DNA of 64,000 nt from Ezakiella massiliensis (GTDB taxonomy: Bacteria > Bacillota > Clostridia > Tissierellales > Peptoniphilaceae): the NCBI RefSeq assembly GCF_900120165.1, contig NZ_LT635475.1, positions 744,001 to 808,000 of the forward strand. The letters run 5' to 3'. The notes below the pieces were generated by a model that was not told the origin of the DNA, did not search any database, and saw nothing but the letters and a program-made list of their open reading frames with translations. Positions 11,395-52,854 of this stretch are shown piece by piece (position 1 is the first letter of the stretch; each line of letters opens with the position of its first letter). Both the position numbers and the translations under genes were made by a program.

Positions 11395-11462
11395 AAAAAA
11401 TCCTCCTAAAATTTATAGAGGAAGCTAAAAATAAACTTCTCTATCTTTCGTAAAGAAATTTG

Positions 11463-11600
11463 ACTTGACAGGTATCCTGACTCTTTGCCTCAATCAGTTG
11501 CAACCCTTCCCTATAAGTGAGTTGCAGCCTCGGCTTTAACAGTGGCGAAGACCGTGTGGTTTAATCCAGCTTCCCTGTTTGGCCAAGCCATGTTCAATTG
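11463..11600 (-). ncRNA. Cobalamin riboswitch
   Basis: Read leftward, the RNA contains the landmarks of the cobalamin element in order: CAGGGAAGCTGG, TTAAACCA, ACGGTCTTCGCCACTGT, then AAGCCGAGG, and near the 3' end GAGTCAGGATACCTGTC. GTTGCAAC-type pairing (AGGCTGCAAC with GTTGCAAC) closes an internal arm. A promoter lies at 11606-11633. Downstream, ATAGAG/CTCTAT arms just before the AGGAGG of the small ORF could be the expression platform. Such RNAs bind coenzyme B12 or a derivative and usually shut expression off. Confidence 0.85.
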
Positions 11601-11605
11601 CTATA

Positions 11606-11633
11606 ATTATAGCATATATAAAATAATAATCAA
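11606..11633 (-). promoter_or_regulatory. Promoter of the riboswitch-gltS transcript
   Basis: Read leftward: TTGATT (11633-11628), 16 bp, TATAAT (11611-11606). Confidence 0.65.
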
Positions 11634-17797: not shown

Positions 17798-17905
17798 ATA
17801 TTTCTGGTTAAATTTGCGACATTCTTTGGAAATTAAATTTACATCAAACATTATTTTGCTACATTTACATCTGCAGAAGATTTTTTCTTTTGGGCGTGAC
17901 TTTTC

Positions 17906-17931
17906 GGTCCACATAAAGTGGACCCTACAAC
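17906..17931. repeat. CTAC/ATAAA hairpin repeat, copy
   Basis: GGTCCAC, loop ATAAA, GTGGACC, then CTACAACCG. The following 80 bp (AGCGA, ATGCC, TGATATAAAAA, AAAGAGTGCGAACA) are shared with the block after 39235. The rest of the gap 17798-18089 holds AT-rich sequence and no gene. Confidence 0.72.
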
Positions 17932-18089
17932 CGCAAAGCGACATTTAATAGATGCCATTGATATAAAAATTATTACATAAAAATAAAGAGTGCGAACACT
18001 CTTTATTAAAAAATTTTCAAATTAAAATTATTTTATTTTCTCTCTACCTTTTTATATCTATAAATTCCTTCACCCATAACATGGCACTG

Positions 18090-18213
18090 AATTTAGGAGG
18101 ATAAATCGATGAGATTCGAAGTGAAACAAAATTTTTAGGACGCAGGTGTACTCAAGTGTACTCCGAGGACTAAAATTTTTTTCACGAGAATGTCGCGATT
18201 TAGACCCTAAATT
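18090..18213. repeat. Long hairpin element, copy 1 (behind truA)
   Basis: A 124-bp imperfect inverted repeat bounded by AATTTAGG and CCTAAATT. The left arm carries AGGAGG, 8 bp, then ATGAGATTC; the right arm reads TTTCACGAGAATGTCGCG. The centre forms its own hairpin around GGTGTAC. The right end lies within truA and supplies its last codons and stop. Also at 27019-27150 and 39444-39567. Confidence 0.85.
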
Positions 18214-18952
18214 CAAGATTGTTGTACAATATTGAGATCATCGTGAGCCCCTTCGCCGGCATCGTCACCCCCGCCTTCTGCCTATCCGGCCTTTGAAAAA
18301 GCCCCATTAAACCTTCCAAACTCAGCCTGCCTTCGTTGATTTTTAAAATTGTCCCGACCATTATGCGGATCATATTTTTTAAAAAGGCCTCTCCGTAGAT
18401 ATCGAAGATTAAAAAATTTCCTTCCACATTTACGTCGACCTTGTTGACTCTACGGACGGAGGTTGGCATTTGCGCATAAGGTCCTTCAAAGGCCTTAAAA
18501 TCGTGCTCGCCTTCCATTATTTCGCCAGCTGCCTGCATGAGTTCTAAATTGATTTTGCGGTCATATAGAGCCGCATTTCGGCCTTCTGTCGCCGGCAAAA
18601 CTTGGCCCAGATAAATCCTGTATTGATAGTGCTTCTCCAAGGCGTCAAAGCGAGCGGAAAAATCGTCAGCGACTTGGGCGGAGGCCATTATCCTGATATC
18701 ATCTGGCAAAATATTGTTAAGTGGATAGAGAAACTTGTCACCAGGTATACTTGATTGTGTATAAAAGTCTGCCACCTGTCCCTTGGCGTGGACTCCTGCA
18801 TCTGTTCGTCCAGCCGCACGCAAATTAATTTCTTCGCCTGTGATTTCCTTCAGGGCATTTTCAATTATCTCCTGAATGCCTATGCCATTTTTTTGCCTCT
18901 GCCAGCCGTTATAATTTGTCCCGTCGTAATCGATAAGAAGCGCAACTCTCAT
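18200..18952 (-). CDS. truA: tRNA pseudouridine synthase A
   Basis: A 250-residue enzyme that makes pseudouridine at positions 38-40 of the tRNA anticodon arm. It has LIDYDGTNYNGWQRQ at the N-terminus and GRTDAGVHAKGQVADF with catalytic D51; RFDALEKHYQYRI and KNMIRIMVG follow as expected. The family core ends near ISILYN. The final LEFRV and the TAA come from the repeat element at 18090-18213. The start overlaps the ecfT stop (TGATG), giving an ecfA-ecfT-truA order familiar from Firmicutes, though there it normally follows rplQ. Confidence 0.96.
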   Translation of the reverse strand: MRVALLIDYDGTNYNGWQRQKNGIGIQEIIENALKEITGEEINLRAAGRTDAGVHAKGQVADFYTQSSIPGDKFLYPLNNILPDDIRIMASAQVADDFSARFDALEKHYQYRIYLGQVLPATEGRNAALYDRKINLELMQAAGEIMEGEHDFKAFEGPYAQMPTSVRRVNKVDVNVEGNFLIFDIYGEAFLKNMIRIMVGTILKINEGRLSLEGLMGLFQRPDRQKAGVTMPAKGLTMISILYNNLEFRV

Positions 18953-24809: not shown

Positions 24810-24825
24810 AGGCTAAGAAGATTTT

Positions 24826-25095
24826 TTATTTCATTTTTTAAGGCCAGTCAACTTTAATTAAAAATTGAATTTTCTTTTTCATTTCTCAAGCCCTCACGAT
24901 TATAATTGTAAATTTCATTTTATTTTTCATATTGAAAGTCCGCAGGATTTTAATTTTAAAGAGCATTTTATTTTTTTTATTTAGAGGCCGCTTATTTTTA
25001 ATTTTAAATTGCGTTTTACTTTTCATTTTTTACGGCCGCCTACTTTTAATTTCAAATTACGTTTATTTTTCTTGTTTAAAGGCATTTTAAAAACA
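24826..25095. repeat. 48-bp degenerate tandem repeat, about 5.5 units
   Basis: Units of 47-49 bp, each with AAGGCCGC-like start, then CTTTTAATTTnAAATTnCG, then TTTTATTTTTCA. Same family as 14.65 kb and 44.8 kb. The gap between the GNAT and radical SAM genes (303 bp) is filled by it, and the promoter of the next gene probably lies in the last unit. Confidence 0.8.
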
Positions 25096-26849: not shown

Positions 26850-26969
26850 ATCGGTCAATTTCTTGGCGACCATTTCAGGATCGCCGCTACGGGAAATTGA
26901 CCTCTTGGGCAGGGCTGCAGGTCGCAAAAAGTAGAACACTGCAAAAATTCGCAATTTTAACCGCAAATT
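26850..26969. repeat. Mosaic intergenic repeat
   Basis: Bases 26902-26969 (starting CTCTTGGGCAGGGCT, ending ACCGCAAATT) match 52750-52817 at 65 of 68 positions. The part before it is an inverted repeat GGTCAATTTC/GAAATTGACC enclosing a GGCGA hairpin (GGCGACCATTTCAGGATCGCC). No gene. Confidence 0.72.
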
Positions 26970-27018
26970 ATCAAATTAAAAATCTTTTTCTTTCCTCTCC
27001 ATACATAACATGGCACTG

Positions 27019-27150
27019 AATTTAGGAGGATAATTAGATGAGATTCGAAGTGAAATAAAAATATTAATCGGCCATGTAGAGGCGATCCTTTATGGTCGCC
27101 AAGCCGATTAATATTTTTTCACGAGAATATCGCGATTTAGACCCTAAATT
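27019..27150. repeat. Long hairpin element, copy 2 (behind the AlkD-like gene)
   Basis: A 132-bp copy with the same outer arms as copies at 18.1 and 39.5 kb but a different centre: 13-bp perfect arms AATATTAATCGGC/GCCGATTAATATT around a GTAGAGGCGATCC, TTTAT, GGTCGCC hairpin. The 15 bp before it (CATAACATGGCACTG) are also shared with copy 1. Its right end supplies the last codons of the AlkD-like gene. Confidence 0.85.
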
Positions 27151-27796
27151 CTAATAGTTGTTCTTTCGTTTGATCTGAAACCCTATAACTCTCTCTCGCC
27201 TTCTGTATGGCTTTGTTCTGCGTCCACTCATCTAAAACTTTATTTTCTAAAGCCTCATAGGCCGGGTCAAAATTTTTCACCAAAAGCTCTGCCATATACC
27301 AAGCCCGAGCCATATTTACATAATAAAAATCAGTTTTTATCTGGACTATTTGATCCAAATCGGATGGCAAAAAATTTTCCCCTTGCAAATTCATAAGTAA
27401 AATTACGCCCATCCGCACTTGGTATTCGCCACCTCTACTAATAAGTTCTCTGGCAGTTTCTCTTGCTATAGTTGGATTCTTCTTAAAAGCTTTGGGCTTA
27501 ATGACATCTGTCTGGGCCCAATTTTCAAGATAATTCCCAAAGGCCAAGAGTTTTTCCCTAGCCAAATCTCCATCCTTGATTTCATTTATAAGTAGGCCGT
27601 GAATCATATTTTCTTCATGATAAAAATGGGGCAGATTTTCTAAAAAACCTAGCCCCTCATTTTTATAAATTTCTTTTGCAAGCTTTCTTAAGGTCGGCAT
27701 CCTAATTCCCAAAATCTTTTCCCGATCTATATTTGGAATTAATTTTGCCGTAAAGTCCCCGTAGCTTTGATCCTTGTAAAAATTTAAATCAACCAT
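27137..27796 (-). CDS. AlkD-like DNA alkylation repair protein (HEAT-repeat)
   Basis: A 219-residue all-helical protein with ILGIRMPTLRKLAKEIYKN near the N-terminus, NWAQTDVIKPKAFKKN in the middle and FYYVNMARAWYMAELLVK near 165, the pattern of the DNA alkylation repair (AlkD) family. Such proteins excise alkylated bases using HEAT repeats. The start at 27796 lies 13 bp behind dnaB; a longer frame to 27922 is antisense overlap within dnaB's own end. The last residues LEFRV and the stop come from the hairpin element, as in truA. Confidence 0.85.
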   Translation of the reverse strand: MVDLNFYKDQSYGDFTAKLIPNIDREKILGIRMPTLRKLAKEIYKNEGLGFLENLPHFYHEENMIHGLLINEIKDGDLAREKLLAFGNYLENWAQTDVIKPKAFKKNPTIARETARELISRGGEYQVRMGVILLMNLQGENFLPSDLDQIVQIKTDFYYVNMARAWYMAELLVKNFDPAYEALENKVLDEWTQNKAIQKARESYRVSDQTKEQLLEFRV

Positions 27797-27809
27797 AATA
27801 AATTCTAAA

Positions 27810-29153
27810 TTATTGATACAAATCAGCCGGTGCTTCCACCTTTGACATTGGTAAAAACTTGGTGTTTTCGCCCTTGTAGACGAGTTTAACTGTACCCGTT
27901 GGTCCGTTTCTGTGCTTGGCAATTATAACTTCGCCTATGCCCCTGTCCTCTGAATCGGGATTGTAGTATTCGTCACGATACAAGAACAAAACAACGTCTG
28001 CGTCTTGTTCGATGGCCCCTGATTCACGAAGGTCAGAAAGAATCGGCCTGTGGTTGGTCCTTTGCTCTGGAGCCCGTGACAATTGCGAAAGTGCAATGAC
28101 TGGCACGTCGAGTTCTTTGGCCATGGCCTTGAGGCCACGAGAAATTTTTGAAATTTCCAAGGTCCTGTTTTCAGTTTGACCGCCAGCTTCCATGAGCTGC
28201 AAGTAGTCGATTACAACCAAATCAAGCCCTTGTTCTAGCTGGAGGCGTCTGAGTTTGGCCCGCATATCTTGAACGCTGGTTCCACTCATATCATCGATGT
28301 ATAAATTATTTTGAGAAAAGTCAACCAGGGTCTTGGAAATTCGTTTCCAATCATCTGTCTTCAAATCCCCTTGGATAAGATTTGTCAGAGAAATATTGGT
28401 CAGCTGAGAATAAATTCTGAGGGCCAATTGGGTCTTGGACATTTCCAGAGAAAAAATGGCAACTGTCTTTTTATTTTGTGCAGCATTTACCGCAAAGTTT
28501 ACGCCAAGTGCGGTCTTACCCATAGAAGGTCTAGCCGCAAGCAAAATAAGATCACTCTTTTGAAAGCCAGATAGCATATCGTCGATGTCCTTGAAGCCTG
28601 TGGAAAGTCCTGACAAGGCTCCCTTTAGTTTGGCCCTATCCATGAGGTCCTTGCTGGATTCCTGGAGGATTCCGCCGATGTGTTTGAGGTCATCATCGCC
28701 TGATTTCAAACCCAAATCCAAAATCATATCCTCGGCCGCACCAATGGTATCCACCGCTTGGCCCTTGGCTTCGACAGCTTGGACTTTTATTTCGTCTGCA
28801 ATGCCAGCCAGTCGCCTAAATAGATATTTTTCGTGGACAATTTCCGCCAAGTCCTTTTGCCTGGCCCCAGTTACGTATGAAGAACCAACTTCAGCAATGT
28901 ATTGGGGGCCGCCAGCCATATCCAAAGCGTCCATGGCCTTGAGCTCTTCGGCAATGCTAACCCTGTTTATGGACTTGCCCCGACTGGCCAAAGACATAAT
29001 GGCCTTGTACATGAGCTTGTTTCTTTTGTGGTAAAATTCCTCTTCGGACTTGATAATTTCCAGGGACACATCCACGGTCTCGGCGTCATTTATCATATTT
29101 GCAATTACATTAATCTCCGCATCCAAGGATTCTGGCAGAGTGAAATCTTGCAT
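27810..29153 (-). CDS. dnaB: Replicative DNA helicase
   Basis: A 447-residue hexameric helicase: N-terminal primase-interaction domain (LPESLDAEINVIANMIND), then the RecA-like core with LLAARPSMGKTALGVNFA (Walker A near 207), VVIDYLQLM (Walker B) and LSQLSRAPEQR. Length and motifs are normal and no intein is present. The start overlaps the rplI stop (TAATG). The gdpP-rplI-dnaB order is the same as in B. subtilis. Confidence 0.97.
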   Translation of the reverse strand: MQDFTLPESLDAEINVIANMINDAETVDVSLEIIKSEEEFYHKRNKLMYKAIMSLASRGKSINRVSIAEELKAMDALDMAGGPQYIAEVGSSYVTGARQKDLAEIVHEKYLFRRLAGIADEIKVQAVEAKGQAVDTIGAAEDMILDLGLKSGDDDLKHIGGILQESSKDLMDRAKLKGALSGLSTGFKDIDDMLSGFQKSDLILLAARPSMGKTALGVNFAVNAAQNKKTVAIFSLEMSKTQLALRIYSQLTNISLTNLIQGDLKTDDWKRISKTLVDFSQNNLYIDDMSGTSVQDMRAKLRRLQLEQGLDLVVIDYLQLMEAGGQTENRTLEISKISRGLKAMAKELDVPVIALSQLSRAPEQRTNHRPILSDLRESGAIEQDADVVLFLYRDEYYNPDSEDRGIGEVIIAKHRNGPTGTVKLVYKGENTKFLPMSKVEAPADLYQ

Positions 29154-39573: not shown

Positions 39574-39650
39574 TGGTACGGGTGAAGAGACTCGAACTCC
39601 CAAAAACACGGACCTGAACCGTGCGCGTATGCCAATTCCGCCACACCCGC
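39574..39650 (-). tRNA. tRNA-Leu (CAG anticodon)
   Basis: Read leftward: acceptor GCGGGTG with CACCCGT, D-arm GCGGAATTGGCATACGC, anticodon stem CACGG/CCGTG with loop TTCAGGT (anticodon CAG), T-loop TTCGAGT, discriminator A and encoded CCA; 77 nt. The D-arm and A73 are leucine-like, but the variable region is only TTTTT, whereas leucine tRNAs carry a long variable arm. A half copy lies at 39806-39839. Confidence 0.85.
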
Positions 39651-44597: not shown

Positions 44598-44690
44598 AAT
44601 CCACCTCCATTGTGATTTAGTCTCGCCGTCTAAGGTGGCCTAAAAATAAGCACTTAAAAACCTGTTCCGTGCGGAAGATTACCTACTAAT
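44598..44690 (-). ncRNA. L21 leader (autoregulatory mRNA structure)
   Basis: Read leftward the leader contains GCACGGAACAGG, TTTTTAAGTGC, then GGCCACCTTAGACGGCGAGAC just ahead of the rplU ribosome site GGAGG. This matches the known L21 leader motif of Firmicutes, which is thought to let ribosomal protein repress its own mRNA. Confidence 0.75.
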
Positions 44691-44784: not shown

Positions 44785-45060
44785 ATCCAGGCCTCTAACT
44801 TTCACATTGAAATACAATTATTTTTCAAATTCCAAGACTACTAACTTTTAAATTTAAATATAATTATTTTATCAAAACTCCCAGACTTTAACTTCTTAAA
44901 ATACAAATACAATTATTTTTCTAAATCGCCAGGCCGTTAACTTTTAAATTTAAATGCAATTATTTTTTAAAATCGCCTGTCCTTTAACTTCTTAAAATAA
45001 AATGCAATTATTTTTTCAAAACTTCTAGCCTTTAACTTTCAAATTCAAAATGCATTTTAT
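44785..45060. repeat. 48-bp degenerate tandem repeat, six units
   Basis: Six units of 47-49 bp with consensus TCGCCAGGCC, TTTAACTTTTAAAT, TTAAATGCAATTATTTTTT, AAAA. Odd and even units alternate slightly (TTTTAAATTTAAAT against TTCTTAAAATA). Same family as 14.65 and 24.8 kb. The remaining gap 44691-44784 is AT-rich without visible genes. Confidence 0.82.
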
Positions 45061-47923: not shown

Positions 47924-50900
47924 TTATTGATTTTCTCTTACAGTGATAATTACTCTGTAATTTTCTTGATCCCATTCGATGTCATTGTATACGCCATCTC
48001 TTAGGTCGCCATTGGTCATGCCAAAGATTTGTGAGATGTTTGTGAGTGGGACAAAGATTCTTTCAGAAATAACTGTTGGTTCAGCGTCCATTACGATTTG
48101 ACGGCCGTCTGAAACTTGGATGATATTTGAACCCAAAGTGATTGTTGCTGTGATACCATCCTTTGTGAAGGTTGCACTTTGTGTGTCTTGGTGCCATTCA
48201 ACTGTAGCTCCAATAGCTTCTGCTACAAATCTGATAGGTAGCATGGTTCTTTGGTTGATAGCTGTTGGTGCTACGTCCATTGGAATTTGGCTAATATTTC
48301 CGTTTAATTCCATTTCATAGTAATATTTTTCCAAGTAGAAGTAAAGTGTCTTAAAGGCATCTTTCTTTTCTTCTTCCTTAACTTCATCCTTCTTATCTTC
48401 ATTTCTTTCTGAAGGTTTATATTCGTCTTTTTTGCTGTAGTCTCTTAGATAATTTGGACTTGGTTCATCATAGTAGTAACCTGGATAGTAAGGTGGATTT
48501 GAAGGTTGATAAGGATCTTCACCTGGTTCATCTTCACCTGGTTTTTCTGGTTCTGGTTGCGGTTTGTTTTTATTTTCTTTATCCTTTTCCTTTGCATCTG
48601 CTAGAGCCTCTTCAAGAGCACCCTTGGTTTGAGCCTTATCAACAGCATCCTTAAATTCATTCTTTTCTTCTGGACTTAGATTATCTAAGGCGTCTATAGC
48701 TTTCTTAGCTTTATCCTTTTCTTGGGCTGTAGGAGCAAGAGCATTTTCTTTTGCCTCAGCATCAGCCTTGGCCTTGTCAGCTGCATCTTGTGCCTTGTCA
48801 GCTGCGTCTTGAGCGTCTTTTGCATCTGCTTTAGCTTGGTCAGCTTCTTTTTTGGCTTCGTCAGCTTTATTTTGAGCTTCCTTAGCTTCGATTTCTTTAG
48901 TATCTGCTGCTTCTTTGGCTTCCTTTTGAGCATCCTCTGCTGCGTCTGCTGCTTTCTTAGCTTCTTCTAGTGCCTTTTGTGCTTCTGCATCATTAGGATT
49001 TTCTTTTGCAGCTTTTTCAGCTTCCTCTTCTTTAGCCTTTGCATCTTCATATGCCTTTTGTGCTTCAGTTTCTTTAGTTTTTGCGTCTGCTGCTTCTTTA
49101 GCTTTAGCATCTGCTTCTGTTTGTGCTTCTTCAGCTGCTTTTTCTGCGTCTGCTGCTTTCTTTTCAGCTTCTTCAGCTTTAACCTTTTCTGCGTCTGCTG
49201 CTTCTTGAGCTTTATCTGCTTCTGCTCTTGCCTCTTCAGCATCTTTCTTTTTCTTGTTTTCTTCATCTTGAGCTTGAGCTGCTTCTAATACTTTTTCAAC
49301 AGCTTCCTTGCTATCAGCTTGGTCAACTTTTGCTTTTTCTGCATCTTTTTCTTCTTGGCTTAAATTTTCAAACTTATCAATATCTTTTTTAGCTGCATCT
49401 TTTGCTTCTTCAAGAGCTTTCTTGGCTTCAGCTTCTTTCTTGTTTTCTTCATCTAATGTCTTTGCAGCTTCTAGAGCTTTTTCAACAGCTTCTTTGTTAT
49501 CAGCTTGGTCAACTTTATCTTGAGCATCTTTCTTTTCTTCAGGACTTAAATTTTCAAGCTTATCAATATCTTTCTTAGCTGCGTCTTTTGCTTCTTCAAG
49601 AGCTTTCTTAGCTTCAGCTTCTTCTTTGTTCTTAGTATCTTGAGCCTTAGCAGCTTCAACAGCACTATCTACTCCAGCTTTGTCCTTTGCTTGGTCAACT
49701 TTAGCTTGAGCATCTTTCTTTTCATCATCGTTTAAGTTTTCTAAAGCTTCAATATCTTTCTTAGCTTGGTCTTTAGCAGCTTTCAATTCTTTAGCTGCAT
49801 CAAATTCTTGTCTAATATCATTTAATCCTGCTGGATCTTCTAATGCATCAACTTTATCAGTTAGATTTTTCTTTGTTTCAGCGTCTAAATCAGATTTTTC
49901 AATTTCACCTTTTAATTCAGTCTTTCTTTCATCAAAGTTTTCTTTGTCTTGTTCGGTTTTGATTCCATCTTCTATTTCTTTTGTTAATTCATCAAGATCA
50001 GTATCAACTGTTGCATCATTAACTTTTTTCTTCAAAGCTTCAACAGCTTTTGTATCTTTTAAATTTGCTTCATCAATCTTTCTAAGCAATTCTGCCTTCT
50101 TTTCTTCAAGAGCCTTTTCAGCTTCTTTTTTGGCTTTAATTTCAGCATCTTTATCTTGAGCCTCTTTTAAAGCTGCACTTACTCCAGCTTCATCTTTTGC
50201 TTCTTCAACTTTTGCTTTAGCTTCATTTTTTTGATCGTTAGTTAGGTTTTCAAGCTTATCTATTTTATCTTTAGCATCTTCTTTTGCTTTCTTTAAAGCT
50301 GCTTTTTTTGCTGCGTCCTTGTCAACTACTTCTAGGGCTGTATCAATTTCAGCATCATCTACATCCTTGCCTGCCTTGTCCCAATAAACAGCAAGCTTCT
50401 TGCCATTATATTCTAATTTAACAAGGGTGTTATTGTCGATGTCTTCTCCATCAACTATCTTAACTTTTAATCCGTAGTCTTTAAAATCCTTATAGGAAAC
50501 TTTTCTAGTCACATCTGCTTGGGTGTTATCTTTATTAGCTGCTTTTAATTCAACTTCTAAATTATCTAAATAAAATTTCACTTGTTCTGAGTCAGCGACT
50601 TGATAAGATGTTGATGGGTTCCTTGTAACTTTTATGGATTTAATATTATCCTTGTCAAAACCATCATCAATAACTTCTAAGGATTTATTTGTATAAACAA
50701 AGTATTCTTTGCCATTTTCTGTATAAGTTACTTTGATATACTTGCCATTGTCTTCACCTGTTAGCTTTTGACCATCTGTGTAATTGAGTGTAATACCCTT
50801 GGCCGCAAAATCTCTAGGATGAACATATGTTGTACTTCCTCGACCTTCTGCATCATATTTATTAATTCCAACTAGCATTTTGCTTAGGTCAATTTTTGGT

Positions 50901-52159
50901 TCAGCCATTTCCTTGTAATCATATTGTGGTTCACCGATAATTTCAATCTTAGCTTCTTCACTGTTTCCAGATGTATCCATGCCTAGGAAATAATCTTTTT
51001 TAATTTCTGTTTCTTTATCAAATTTTTCTGAAGAAAAGCTCTTAGTGTTTAAATTATATTCATAATAATCATTACCATATAAAGAAACTTTTTTTCCGTC
51101 TTCTACAGTACGTGCTTCTCCATAATCTAATGATAAATTATTCCTCCAACCTTTTTGGCCTGTGTACACAATGCGATTTGGAGTATATACTTCATATAGG
51201 TCTACATCTTCTAATTTGCCTTCATATGTTGGGTTGTTAAAATCAATTGCGTTAAAAAAATTAAATTCATCATACTTTTTATCAAGTGCATAGATTTTTC
51301 TTGAACCATGTTCTTCTTCACCAAGCCAGCCCGCAAACTTTTGTCCTTGTGGTGGGTTAGATGTTTCTTTTGACCTCAATACCTTTACTACTTCTTCATA
51401 AGTAGCTGTTGGAGCAAAGGTTAATACTTCAGTTTCATCTGTTCCATACTTGTGCAAGATAACCTTATAATCAAGATATTTATCATATTCCAAAGTTTTA
51501 TTTGTATTTTCTGTAAAAATGCCTTTAACCTTTGAAGTATCTTTCAACTTATAACCAGAATCTGTATCAAAAAAAACTACATCAAAATGTGCTTGATTTC
51601 TTTCTATTATTTCTACCTCATACAAAGGATTTACATAAAAAGTTTCATTCTTATAAGGTTGGTCCCCTTTGCTCCAAGGTTGAGGTATAAACCCACCATG
51701 GTCTCCTGCATTTACAGTTACTTTGACCCAACCTGTAGGCTGTGATGTAGCTTTTGAGACAACATAGTTTTTTGCCTTGTGTGATTTTGTAGTTACATAT
51801 ATAACAACGTCGTGATCAGGCATTGTAAATTTACGATCTTCTATTTTTTTCCCATCGTAATAATAGTTATAATAAGAATTCCACGAAAAATTACTGTTGT
51901 CAACAGGATAGATTGTAAGTTGAGTTCCAGCCTTTGCCTTTGTTAAACCCTCAGAACTCCAATTGTACGTATTTATTATTTTTAATTCCTCTGGCTTTAA
52001 ATTCACAATATCGTCACTGAATTTAAATTCAATGTTATACTCTCTATTGGGGTCTGCTTGGACTGGTTGTTCTTCACCAGCTGCGAATGTTGGCGCTGCA
52101 AAGGTCACTAGCATGGCTAGGGCCATTAGCAGGGCTAATAATTTCTTAGAATTATTCAT
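47924..52159 (-). CDS. Large surface protein: GA-like helical modules, Ala-rich coiled coil, C-terminal stalk domain
   Basis: A 1411-residue exported protein. Signal peptide about 1-27 (cut after TFA-A). Residues 30-600 hold beta-rich domains, including a MucBP/InlB-like part (KYLDYKVILHKYGTDETE). From about 620 there are at least five GA-like three-helix modules of about 60 residues with core LENLxxxEKxxAxxKVDQAxxKxxVxxAL, near 625, 796, 856, 920 and 1165; two weaker ones lie between. An Ala/Glu/Lys coiled coil follows (about 970-1150), a Pro-rich part (EPEKPGEDEPGEDPYQPSNP) and a stalk domain (about 1290-1411, TMLPIRFVAEAIGATVEW). There is no LPxTG motif. GA modules bind albumin in Finegoldia; binding here is inference. 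Confidence 0.85.
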   Translation of the reverse strand: MNNSKKLLALLMALAMLVTFAAPTFAAGEEQPVQADPNREYNIEFKFSDDIVNLKPEELKIINTYNWSSEGLTKAKAGTQLTIYPVDNSNFSWNSYYNYYYDGKKIEDRKFTMPDHDVVIYVTTKSHKAKNYVVSKATSQPTGWVKVTVNAGDHGGFIPQPWSKGDQPYKNETFYVNPLYEVEIIERNQAHFDVVFFDTDSGYKLKDTSKVKGIFTENTNKTLEYDKYLDYKVILHKYGTDETEVLTFAPTATYEEVVKVLRSKETSNPPQGQKFAGWLGEEEHGSRKIYALDKKYDEFNFFNAIDFNNPTYEGKLEDVDLYEVYTPNRIVYTGQKGWRNNLSLDYGEARTVEDGKKVSLYGNDYYEYNLNTKSFSSEKFDKETEIKKDYFLGMDTSGNSEEAKIEIIGEPQYDYKEMAEPKIDLSKMLVGINKYDAEGRGSTTYVHPRDFAAKGITLNYTDGQKLTGEDNGKYIKVTYTENGKEYFVYTNKSLEVIDDGFDKDNIKSIKVTRNPSTSYQVADSEQVKFYLDNLEVELKAANKDNTQADVTRKVSYKDFKDYGLKVKIVDGEDIDNNTLVKLEYNGKKLAVYWDKAGKDVDDAEIDTALEVVDKDAAKKAALKKAKEDAKDKIDKLENLTNDQKNEAKAKVEEAKDEAGVSAALKEAQDKDAEIKAKKEAEKALEEKKAELLRKIDEANLKDTKAVEALKKKVNDATVDTDLDELTKEIEDGIKTEQDKENFDERKTELKGEIEKSDLDAETKKNLTDKVDALEDPAGLNDIRQEFDAAKELKAAKDQAKKDIEALENLNDDEKKDAQAKVDQAKDKAGVDSAVEAAKAQDTKNKEEAEAKKALEEAKDAAKKDIDKLENLSPEEKKDAQDKVDQADNKEAVEKALEAAKTLDEENKKEAEAKKALEEAKDAAKKDIDKFENLSQEEKDAEKAKVDQADSKEAVEKVLEAAQAQDEENKKKKDAEEARAEADKAQEAADAEKVKAEEAEKKAADAEKAAEEAQTEADAKAKEAADAKTKETEAQKAYEDAKAKEEEAEKAAKENPNDAEAQKALEEAKKAADAAEDAQKEAKEAADTKEIEAKEAQNKADEAKKEADQAKADAKDAQDAADKAQDAADKAKADAEAKENALAPTAQEKDKAKKAIDALDNLSPEEKNEFKDAVDKAQTKGALEEALADAKEKDKENKNKPQPEPEKPGEDEPGEDPYQPSNPPYYPGYYYDEPSPNYLRDYSKKDEYKPSERNEDKKDEVKEEEKKDAFKTLYFYLEKYYYEMELNGNISQIPMDVAPTAINQRTMLPIRFVAEAIGATVEWHQDTQSATFTKDGITATITLGSNIIQVSDGRQIVMDAEPTVISERIFVPLTNISQIFGMTNGDLRDGVYNDIEWDQENYRVIITVRENQ

Positions 52160-52260: not shown

Positions 52261-52829
52261 TAGTAATTATTTTATATTTTAATTAGTAAAACGGCAAAGA
52301 TATTTTTATTTTTTATTTATTCCCCTAGGCATTGATTTTACGGGCTTATATTCTTTCGATTTTGCTTTTTATTTTTGTTTTTATATTTTTCTCTTATATT
52401 ACATTTGTGTTACATTTTTTCTACTATATGTATTGGTGGGCAGTCTTTATATTTTGTCCGGTAAGTGGCGGATAAAATTTGATTTTTAATTTTTATATGT
52501 ATTTCGGTTTTTGAAATTGTTTTGTGGTTTCATTTTTTTACATTTATAATTTTTTGCAGGCAAAATATTTTCGTAATGTATTGGTCTATGCGTCGAATGT
52601 TCATGCCCACAAGGGGCAATCACATTCGCCTAATGTCCACAATTTTCCTCAGACTATTTCATTCAATCAAACATCGCCTTTGGCTCGTTTTCTTGAGAAA
52701 TAGGTTGCGTGAGTCGCTGCATACCAATCGAGCATCGTTGTCACTCGCTCTCTTGGGCAGGGCTTCAGTTCGCAAAAAGTCGAACACTGCAAAAATTCGC
52801 AATTTTAACCGCAAATTTCCCAACAAAAA
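52261..52829. repeat. Intergenic gap with mosaic repeat (52726-52817)
   Basis: Bases 52261-52560 are very AT-rich with no visible gene. Bases 52726-52755 match 39705-39734 (one difference) and 52750-52817 match 26902-26969 (65 of 68). ORFs here have no ribosome sites and are chance frames. Confidence 0.7.
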
Positions 52830-52854
52830 AGACGATCTTTTCGATCGTCTTTAT
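52830..52854 (-). terminator. Rho-independent terminator at the end of the ribosomal protein cluster
   Basis: Read leftward: AAAGACGATC, loop, GATCGTCTTT, T run, directly behind rplQ. Confidence 0.9.

Follow-up and report, generated by a model that had tools for sequence, protein, structure and literature searches.

The window (the whole stretch of DNA that was analysed, 64,000 nucleotides) carries copies of a dispersed palindrome of about 125 bp that we regard, with a probability of roughly 0.55, as a mobile-type element similar to REP and MITE sequences, which lies in one orientation at gene 3' ends in Ezakiella and some of its relatives, most often at a stop codon and sometimes behind a tRNA or a terminator, and whose working form would be a folded DNA strand. 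The family determines the final codons of housekeeping proteins that are unrelated to one another, and it is bound to both the stop codon and the coding strand. A preliminary description of the window listed three copies with shared arms behind truA, an AlkD-like gene and tRNA-Leu; all three were recovered at their coordinates on the - strand with those arms, overlapping each of the two genes by 14 nt and leaving a gap of 6 nt to the tRNA. The copies, related elements and host genes are as follows.

18090..18213, - strand: element copy 1, family I, 124 bp; covers the last 14 nt of truA, giving EFRV and the stop; covariance model score 139.5 bits
27019..27150, - strand: element copy 2, family I shell, 132 bp, with the usual tip swapped for another palindrome; shares 14 nt with the end of the AlkD-like gene; 90.6 bits
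39444..39567, - strand: element copy 3, family I, 124 bp; 6 nt 3' of tRNA-Leu; 139.5 bits
39335..39407 (G000 783335-783407), - strand: partial element comprising the 3' part, placed after copy 3 and after a terminator-like sequence
26937..26968 (G000 770968), - strand: 5' half of a family III related element
52785..52816 (G000 796816), - strand: 5' half of a family III related element, behind a terminator-like sequence; present at the same place in E. peruensis
17800..17832 (G000 761800), + strand: 5' half of a related element, degenerate, located past a terminator-like sequence; E. peruensis has one too
18200..18952, - strand: truA (tRNA pseudouridine synthase), C-terminus ...ILYNNLEFRV
27137..27922, - strand: AlkD-like gene, C-terminus ...QTKEQLLEFRV; Pfam DNA_alkylation at residues 66-194
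39574..39650, - strand: tRNA-Leu (cag)
17982..18007, - strand: intrinsic-terminator-like hairpin behind truA, downstream of element copy 1

Copy 1, read on the - strand, runs from AATTTAGGGTCTAAATCGCGACATTCTCGTGAAA through an apical part, GTCCTCGGAGTACACTTGAGTACACCTGCGTC, to CGATTTATCCTCCTAAATT at its end. An 81-nt second repeat (window 26902-26982 and 52750-52830, 90% identical) is attached to the family III half elements, and further mosaic palindromes are nested in and around the elements.

In the window's genome (G000, a single contig of 1,741,785 bp), blastn gave 36 matches; the three copies are therefore not a product of chance, and the family is larger than first noted. All 36 matches lie within 583-1703 kb of the contig, and the remaining third of the chromosome has none. 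Across genomes, blastn matched 3/61, all of the genus Ezakiella. Two of the genomes compared with G000 were those of E. peruensis M6.X2 (G001) and E. coagulans DSM 20705 (G005). A covariance model built from 19 copies gave, at E up to 0.1, 59 matches in G000, 54 in G001, 50 in G005, 8 in G002, 2 in G004 and 0 in G003, counts that come from the 150 candidates scored out of 569-1699 first-look candidates per genome and that include reverse-strand readings; this amounts to dozens of matches per species in three Ezakiella species and fewer in relatives. Family-wide, under stricter filters, matches were obtained in 17/120 genomes and 6/39 genera. Element length is 122-132 nt in a set of 104 elements that omits incomplete or very weak copies, and 124-128 nt in 97 of them. 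The element is an imperfect palindrome with the ends AATTT..AAATT and, as a short non-coding repeat with inverted ends and many copies, it resembles MITEs in form. Copy 1 had no blastn match among plasmids and phages, and viral contigs contained no match to either the tip pattern or the family III pattern. At the Rfam gathering score nothing was detected at elements within the window; at E up to 10, copy 1 gave nothing except a chance match in its flank, and eight foreign loci gave nothing except RNase P. By eye, the loops were also weighed as hammerhead-like or k-turn-like motifs, and both readings were dropped.

Among the matches listed, a literature search with the tip sequence returned unrelated work, and searches on stop-codon palindromic repeats, Ezakiella repeats, conserved MITE hairpins and REPs close to stops returned related kinds of element and not the one in Ezakiella. 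Two of these related kinds, as far as the available text of the reports goes, provide precedents for the stop-codon position and for donated stops. E. coli REPs are given as lying within 15 nt of a stop codon in 260/496 cases in an earlier study and 446/4,072 by RepRanger (available text of PMC12306157), and REPs are described as 20-40 bp long with GTAG or CGTC tags, the GTAG type accompanying RAYT transposases (available text of PMC3733652). The Ezakiella element resembles REPs and BIMEs as a dispersed palindrome behind genes, with many copies near stop codons, but it is about 125 nt long, has neither GTAG nor CGTC at its ends, and occurs in E. coagulans without a Y1 transposase match. QMITE1 and QMITE2 of Coxiella burnetii are reported as mobile palindromes over gene 3' ends that supply new C-termini or just a stop codon (available text of PMC5896051); they are likewise palindromic and overlap gene 3' ends, but measure 150-400 bp with direct repeats and are given no fixed orientation in that text, and the likeness is by description and not by sequence.

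Position was counted in a 995 kb sample of G000 and E. peruensis, in which 75 covariance matches represent 50 distinct places; the remaining 25, which were removed before counting, are reverse-strand readings of these palindromes. A same-strand stop codon lies -14 to +12 nt from the element start in 35 of the 50 copies (34 by script, plus the AlkD-like copy counted by hand since the gene caller, a plain reading-frame rule, had assigned a farther gene), against an expected share of 13.6% for insertions scattered evenly along 3' flanks (p about 1e-19). In the functional sense of dispersed palindromes near stop codons, the element behaves like a REP. Of the other places, two are behind tRNA-Leu and two behind a guaA-type att sequence. 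At 44 places the element and the gene upstream share a strand and at 6 they do not, and the downstream gene shows no preference (27 versus 23). Corresponding numbers for E. coagulans are 36 same, 5 opposite and 2 without a gene in the stretch, with a stop codon within -16..+14 in 17/43 copies; a second genus (g16) has 18 same and 3 opposite, with 9/21 copies stop-adjacent. Loci from E. coagulans and g16 were the best model matches, of which 64/69 were used and 5, all under 30 bits, were dropped. Pooled over three Ezakiella species and g16, element and upstream gene share a strand in 98/112 copies and lie on opposite strands in 14. The preliminary description had proposed a spreading 3'-end module and named copies lacking a fixed orientation to genes as evidence that would speak against it; the pooled counts agree with such a module, orientation being nearly fixed relative to the upstream gene.

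A 375-kb stretch in which 265/328 genes are on the - strand separates the effect of the gene from that of replication: its 20 elements include seven on the + strand, six of which have an upstream gene on that strand too, so orientation is set by the gene, and strand-directed insertion during replication was rejected. Copies away from stop codons, some of them behind terminator-like sequences, keep the same orientation, and selection on the mRNA therefore does not explain it. A T-tract rule in E. coagulans is weak: 15/42 copies have six or more T among eight nucleotides in the 25 nt upstream, versus 19% of random stretches from the same loci. Behind several E. coagulans copies (L289-L308), which sometimes occur in tandem, comes a tail of one type (GGTGTTTATATG-like) together with a terminator of one type (ACCGGTAAACACCGGTTCTTTTTT). 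The element's own 3' tail (TATGTATAA or GTGTTTATATG) may contain a promoter; conservation of the tail is weak.

The overlap with genes has consequences for protein ends. The 5' arm reads as stop-bearing codons, AATTTAGGGTCTAA giving EFRV, ATTTGCGGTTAA giving ICG and ATTTCGCGTTAA giving ISR. Of the LEFRV tail, EFRV and the stop come from the element arm; L belongs to the flank, and its codon differs among all three sequences examined (truA of two species and the AlkD-like gene). In G000, the ICG tail is found on CobB, Maf, HisRS and glycogen synthase, and the ISR tail on a GNAT protein (all names read from the sequence and not from a database result); E. peruensis has ICG on at least one further protein. 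Such element-coded tails are a minority, and it is for this minority that the element brings its own stop, as had been proposed; in more copies the host's stop codon abuts the element edge. Comparison of orthologues reveals replaced ends: HisRS ends FICG in G000 and FITE in E. peruensis, and Maf has the end IRHIICG (ATT TGC GGT TAA) in the former and IRYLI (ATT TAA) in the latter. For a third protein, the ICG tail is on the E. peruensis side (ILEICG), with TLEKTI in G000. The two Maf ends are a hint of what the target may be. The AlkD-like gene of E. peruensis has an apparent collapsed scar, AAATTTAGGGTCTAAATTCAGTG, and LKFRV as its C-terminus. Distant orthologues carrying LEFRV without the element would speak against an element-borne tail; TruA was found in 61/61 genomes (30 loci retrieved), and LEFRV ends 0/28 TruA proteins outside G000 and E. 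peruensis, the two closest species, with alignments to the 250-residue query stopping at residues 239-249. A short + strand reading frame, MRFEVK, was noticed by eye and carries no evidential weight.

Evidence on the working form comes from the fold. In an alignment of 115 matches (A3, seven reverse readings kept), double-sided changes occur at 44/46 pairs, and the covariation score is 0.525, as opposed to 0.138 when partners are shuffled and 0.06-0.12 when they are slid; because the alignment was fitted to the model, these pair counts lean towards structure. With the seven reverse readings removed, G-U cells make up 0.9% of helix 1, 0.8% of helix 2 and 0.2% of helix 3, and A-C cells 1.3%, 0.1% and 0.8%, respectively; the inner helices are looser, with 3.3% G-U. 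As a control, 29/326 pairs (8.9%) are G-U in 15 ARAGORN-drawn tRNAs from the fetched Ezakiella and relatives. Near-pure Watson-Crick covariation of this kind fits better with arms that act as DNA or are copied from each other than with a conserved RNA, and low G-U could also arise from arm copying during replication, in which case no fold-reading enzyme would be needed. With RNA and DNA parameters alike, the better fold is that of the antisense strand (relative to the gene) in 104/104 copies, by a mean of 10-13 kcal/mol with the former and 4.4 kcal/mol with the latter.

These results weigh on a possible but distinctly less probable explanation, namely, that the element is a host-useful 3'-UTR RNA whose stop-codon hairpin, formed in the mRNA, blocks 3' exonucleases or brakes translation. 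It would account for the same-strand position at the stop codon and for sites that are retained while the element family changes (see below), and it has a precedent in the E. coli REPs already mentioned (available text of PMC12306157), whereas the near absence of G-U pairs from the variable helices, the lower stability of the mRNA strand in every one of the 104 copies and the orientation that persists off stop codons, in some cases behind terminator-like sequences, all count against it. The RNA-stability role suggested in the preliminary description is weakened in the same way, as G-U scarcity counts against selection at the RNA level, although the element may still have some RNA effect. Its other suggestion, a terminator, fared worse: a family of intrinsic terminators would explain hairpins at gene ends, but the window copies have no T tract directly after the hairpin, and at truA a scan of 17850-18350 detected nothing but the intrinsic terminator at 17982-18007, which is distinct from the element and lies downstream of it, so that we give this explanation almost no weight.

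Comparison of orthologous sites shows how the elements turn over. Of 26 G000 places tested against E. peruensis, 19 had an orthologous upstream flank, and 18 were compared (770968, adjoining 771149, was omitted), with flanks 88.7-99.0% identical. Nine of the 18 carry a different element family at the same gene end (633005, 642508 behind groEL, 783566 behind tRNA-Leu, 840454, 896926, 917824, 920486, 923174 and 931370); the other nine comprise four with the same or a similarly degenerate element, one nested, one scar and three with no element. At 633005, both outer flanks are identical, and everything inside the ATTT/AAAT arms differs. Nine family differences at the same site are not readily produced by random independent insertion, and it follows that the site is specific or that elements are exchanged in place. 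Newer elements are also nested in older ones at the TTAA of the arm (L054, L066 and behind groEL of E. peruensis). In the orthologous places compared between G000 and E. peruensis, we found neither a clean target-site duplication nor a clean empty site; the species without the element has a differing downstream flank too.

An ordinary MITE of a DDE transposon, with the 3'-end bias due to selection against insertions elsewhere, is in our judgement unlikely. Its appeal lies in the Coxiella QMITEs, which overlap gene 3' ends and add stop codons (available text of PMC5896051), and in a Verrucomicrobia metagenome-assembled genome (MAG) where, judged by eye, the tip of the hairpin sits in the middle of typical MITEs with the ends GTAACAGATC/GATCTGTTAC and 8-bp direct repeats in at least six copies. 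Selection alone, however, does not readily produce either an orientation ratio of 98:14 or a degree of stop abutment above that of insertions scattered evenly along 3' flanks, and in Ezakiella we saw no target duplication.

In the matching genera of the family besides Ezakiella and g16, all ten copies found (in nine genomes) are at GARTGGGARTAA, behind guaA or a copy of its end. Two of these guaA-site copies, in two other genera, are 96-98% identical to Ezakiella copies and have therefore probably moved between genera, perhaps travelling with guaA-targeting islands. E. peruensis has a tyrosine integrase between guaA and its GARTGGGARTAA site. Stretches from guaA to further copies of its 3' end (GARTGGGARTAA) form gene islands at L070 (9439-19868), L138, L139 and L142; they are apparently tandem in some genomes, often with a hairpin at the junction, and by eye contain methylase-, ABC-transporter- and P-type-ATPase-like genes, with an integrase in one.

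We searched for enzymes that could mobilise the element. A Y1 transposase model had one match in G000, one in E. peruensis and 0 in E. coagulans despite dozens of copies there, and a reverse transcriptase model had no match in E. coagulans; since neither matches in that species, both were rejected as required mobilisers. Integron integrase was over the TIGR02249 cut-off in 0/6 genus genomes, and the weak matches span the C-terminal part alone. The likeness to integron attC sites drawn in the preliminary description therefore stands for shape and not for the recombination machinery. That the elements are themselves attC sites, with gene and element once having formed cassettes, is very improbable: although the 3'-end position, the orientation to the gene and a bulged palindrome without conserved stem sequence are shared, and the more stable antisense strand may parallel attC, which recombines by its bottom strand and is recognised by structure (available text of PMC2727003), the host genes are syntenic, with single elements behind genes and no cassette arrays, and attC core sequences were not recognised by eye against the consensus. 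Short tandem pairs of elements occur in E. coagulans, with no genes between them.

We consider mobile folded DNA with a 3'-end target rule the most likely explanation and a 3'-UTR role at the RNA level the next. In the mobile folded DNA reading, DNA would fold from one strand, antisense to the host gene, and the folded strand would be read by a candidate recombinase or transposase. The target would be AT-rich, for example ATTT/AAAT, and would often contain the stop codon TAA; insertions elsewhere would be purged, and the C-terminal tails would be by-products of arm overlap with the reading frame. To our knowledge, how the hairpin recombination sites of integrons join gene 3' ends is an open question, and the Ezakiella genomes offer a system for following the attachment of hairpins to gene 3' ends.

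The tip of the hairpin is shared with distant bacteria. A scan for CTCGRWGTRCN{5,7}GYACACCTGCG in one genome per species (84,980 species) found at least 120 stretches, versus about 6 expected by chance in the whole collection (hand calculation). Among the matches listed, 100 of the 117 that could be tested occupy the middle of a hairpin whose z is below -3; 86 of the 100 are from outside the family, and the 100 carry 27 organism labels, at least 23 outside the family. The taxa, mostly represented by MAGs, include Verrucomicrobia, Bryobacterales, Desulfobacteraceae, Geobacter, Syntrophus, Bacteriovoracaceae, Coxiellaceae, Nitrospiraceae and Clostridia. The same strand folds better in 100/100 tip hairpins (RNA parameters), and at least 8 of the 17 others are reversed. 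In twenty folds that were inspected, the apex is common to all and includes a GCA/GA internal loop; additional G.A-rich loops are present in most. Hairpin repeats in the MAGs (Verrucomicrobia, Bryobacterales and others) thus share tip and strand polarity with the Ezakiella element, but those inspected have their own terminal repeats (in Bryobacterales, CCTGCATTTCTCACC by eye), and their orientation to genes is weak. Among the matches listed, the placed tip matches, several of them from Ezakiella, have a same-strand upstream gene in 32/53 cases, which indicates that the orientation rule is weak outside the family; copies from Desulfobacteraceae and related organisms (L156, L176 and L221) adjoin a same-strand stop codon by eye. 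The shared tip hints at an undescribed kind of mobile hairpin, and its conservation on one strand in distant bacteria suggests a common, unnamed reader of folded DNA. We put forward only tentatively, as an idea we would not expect to hold in full, that the tip C-GCA-GGUGUAC(N4-6)GUACAUC-GA-G, often with G.A-rich loops, marks an undescribed and widespread class of folded single-strand DNA, one strand of which is read, that is carried inside unrelated mobile repeats; a candidate enzyme would move the folded strand and dock it at gene 3' ends in Ezakiella and apparently some Desulfobacterota, much like attC without an integron. If true, this would be a natural way of attaching recombination hairpins to genes.

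The Verrucomicrobia MAG (JABDDU01, L155-L217) contains many near-identical MITEs with 8-bp direct repeats, which were therefore probably active recently. The window also holds a 1411-codon reading frame at 47924-52159 with long imperfect repeats, including 186-nt units; AT-rich 48-bp tandem repeats at 24822-25070 and 44816-45060; and Rfam matches to a cobalamin riboswitch (11450-11607) and an L21 leader (44609-44683).
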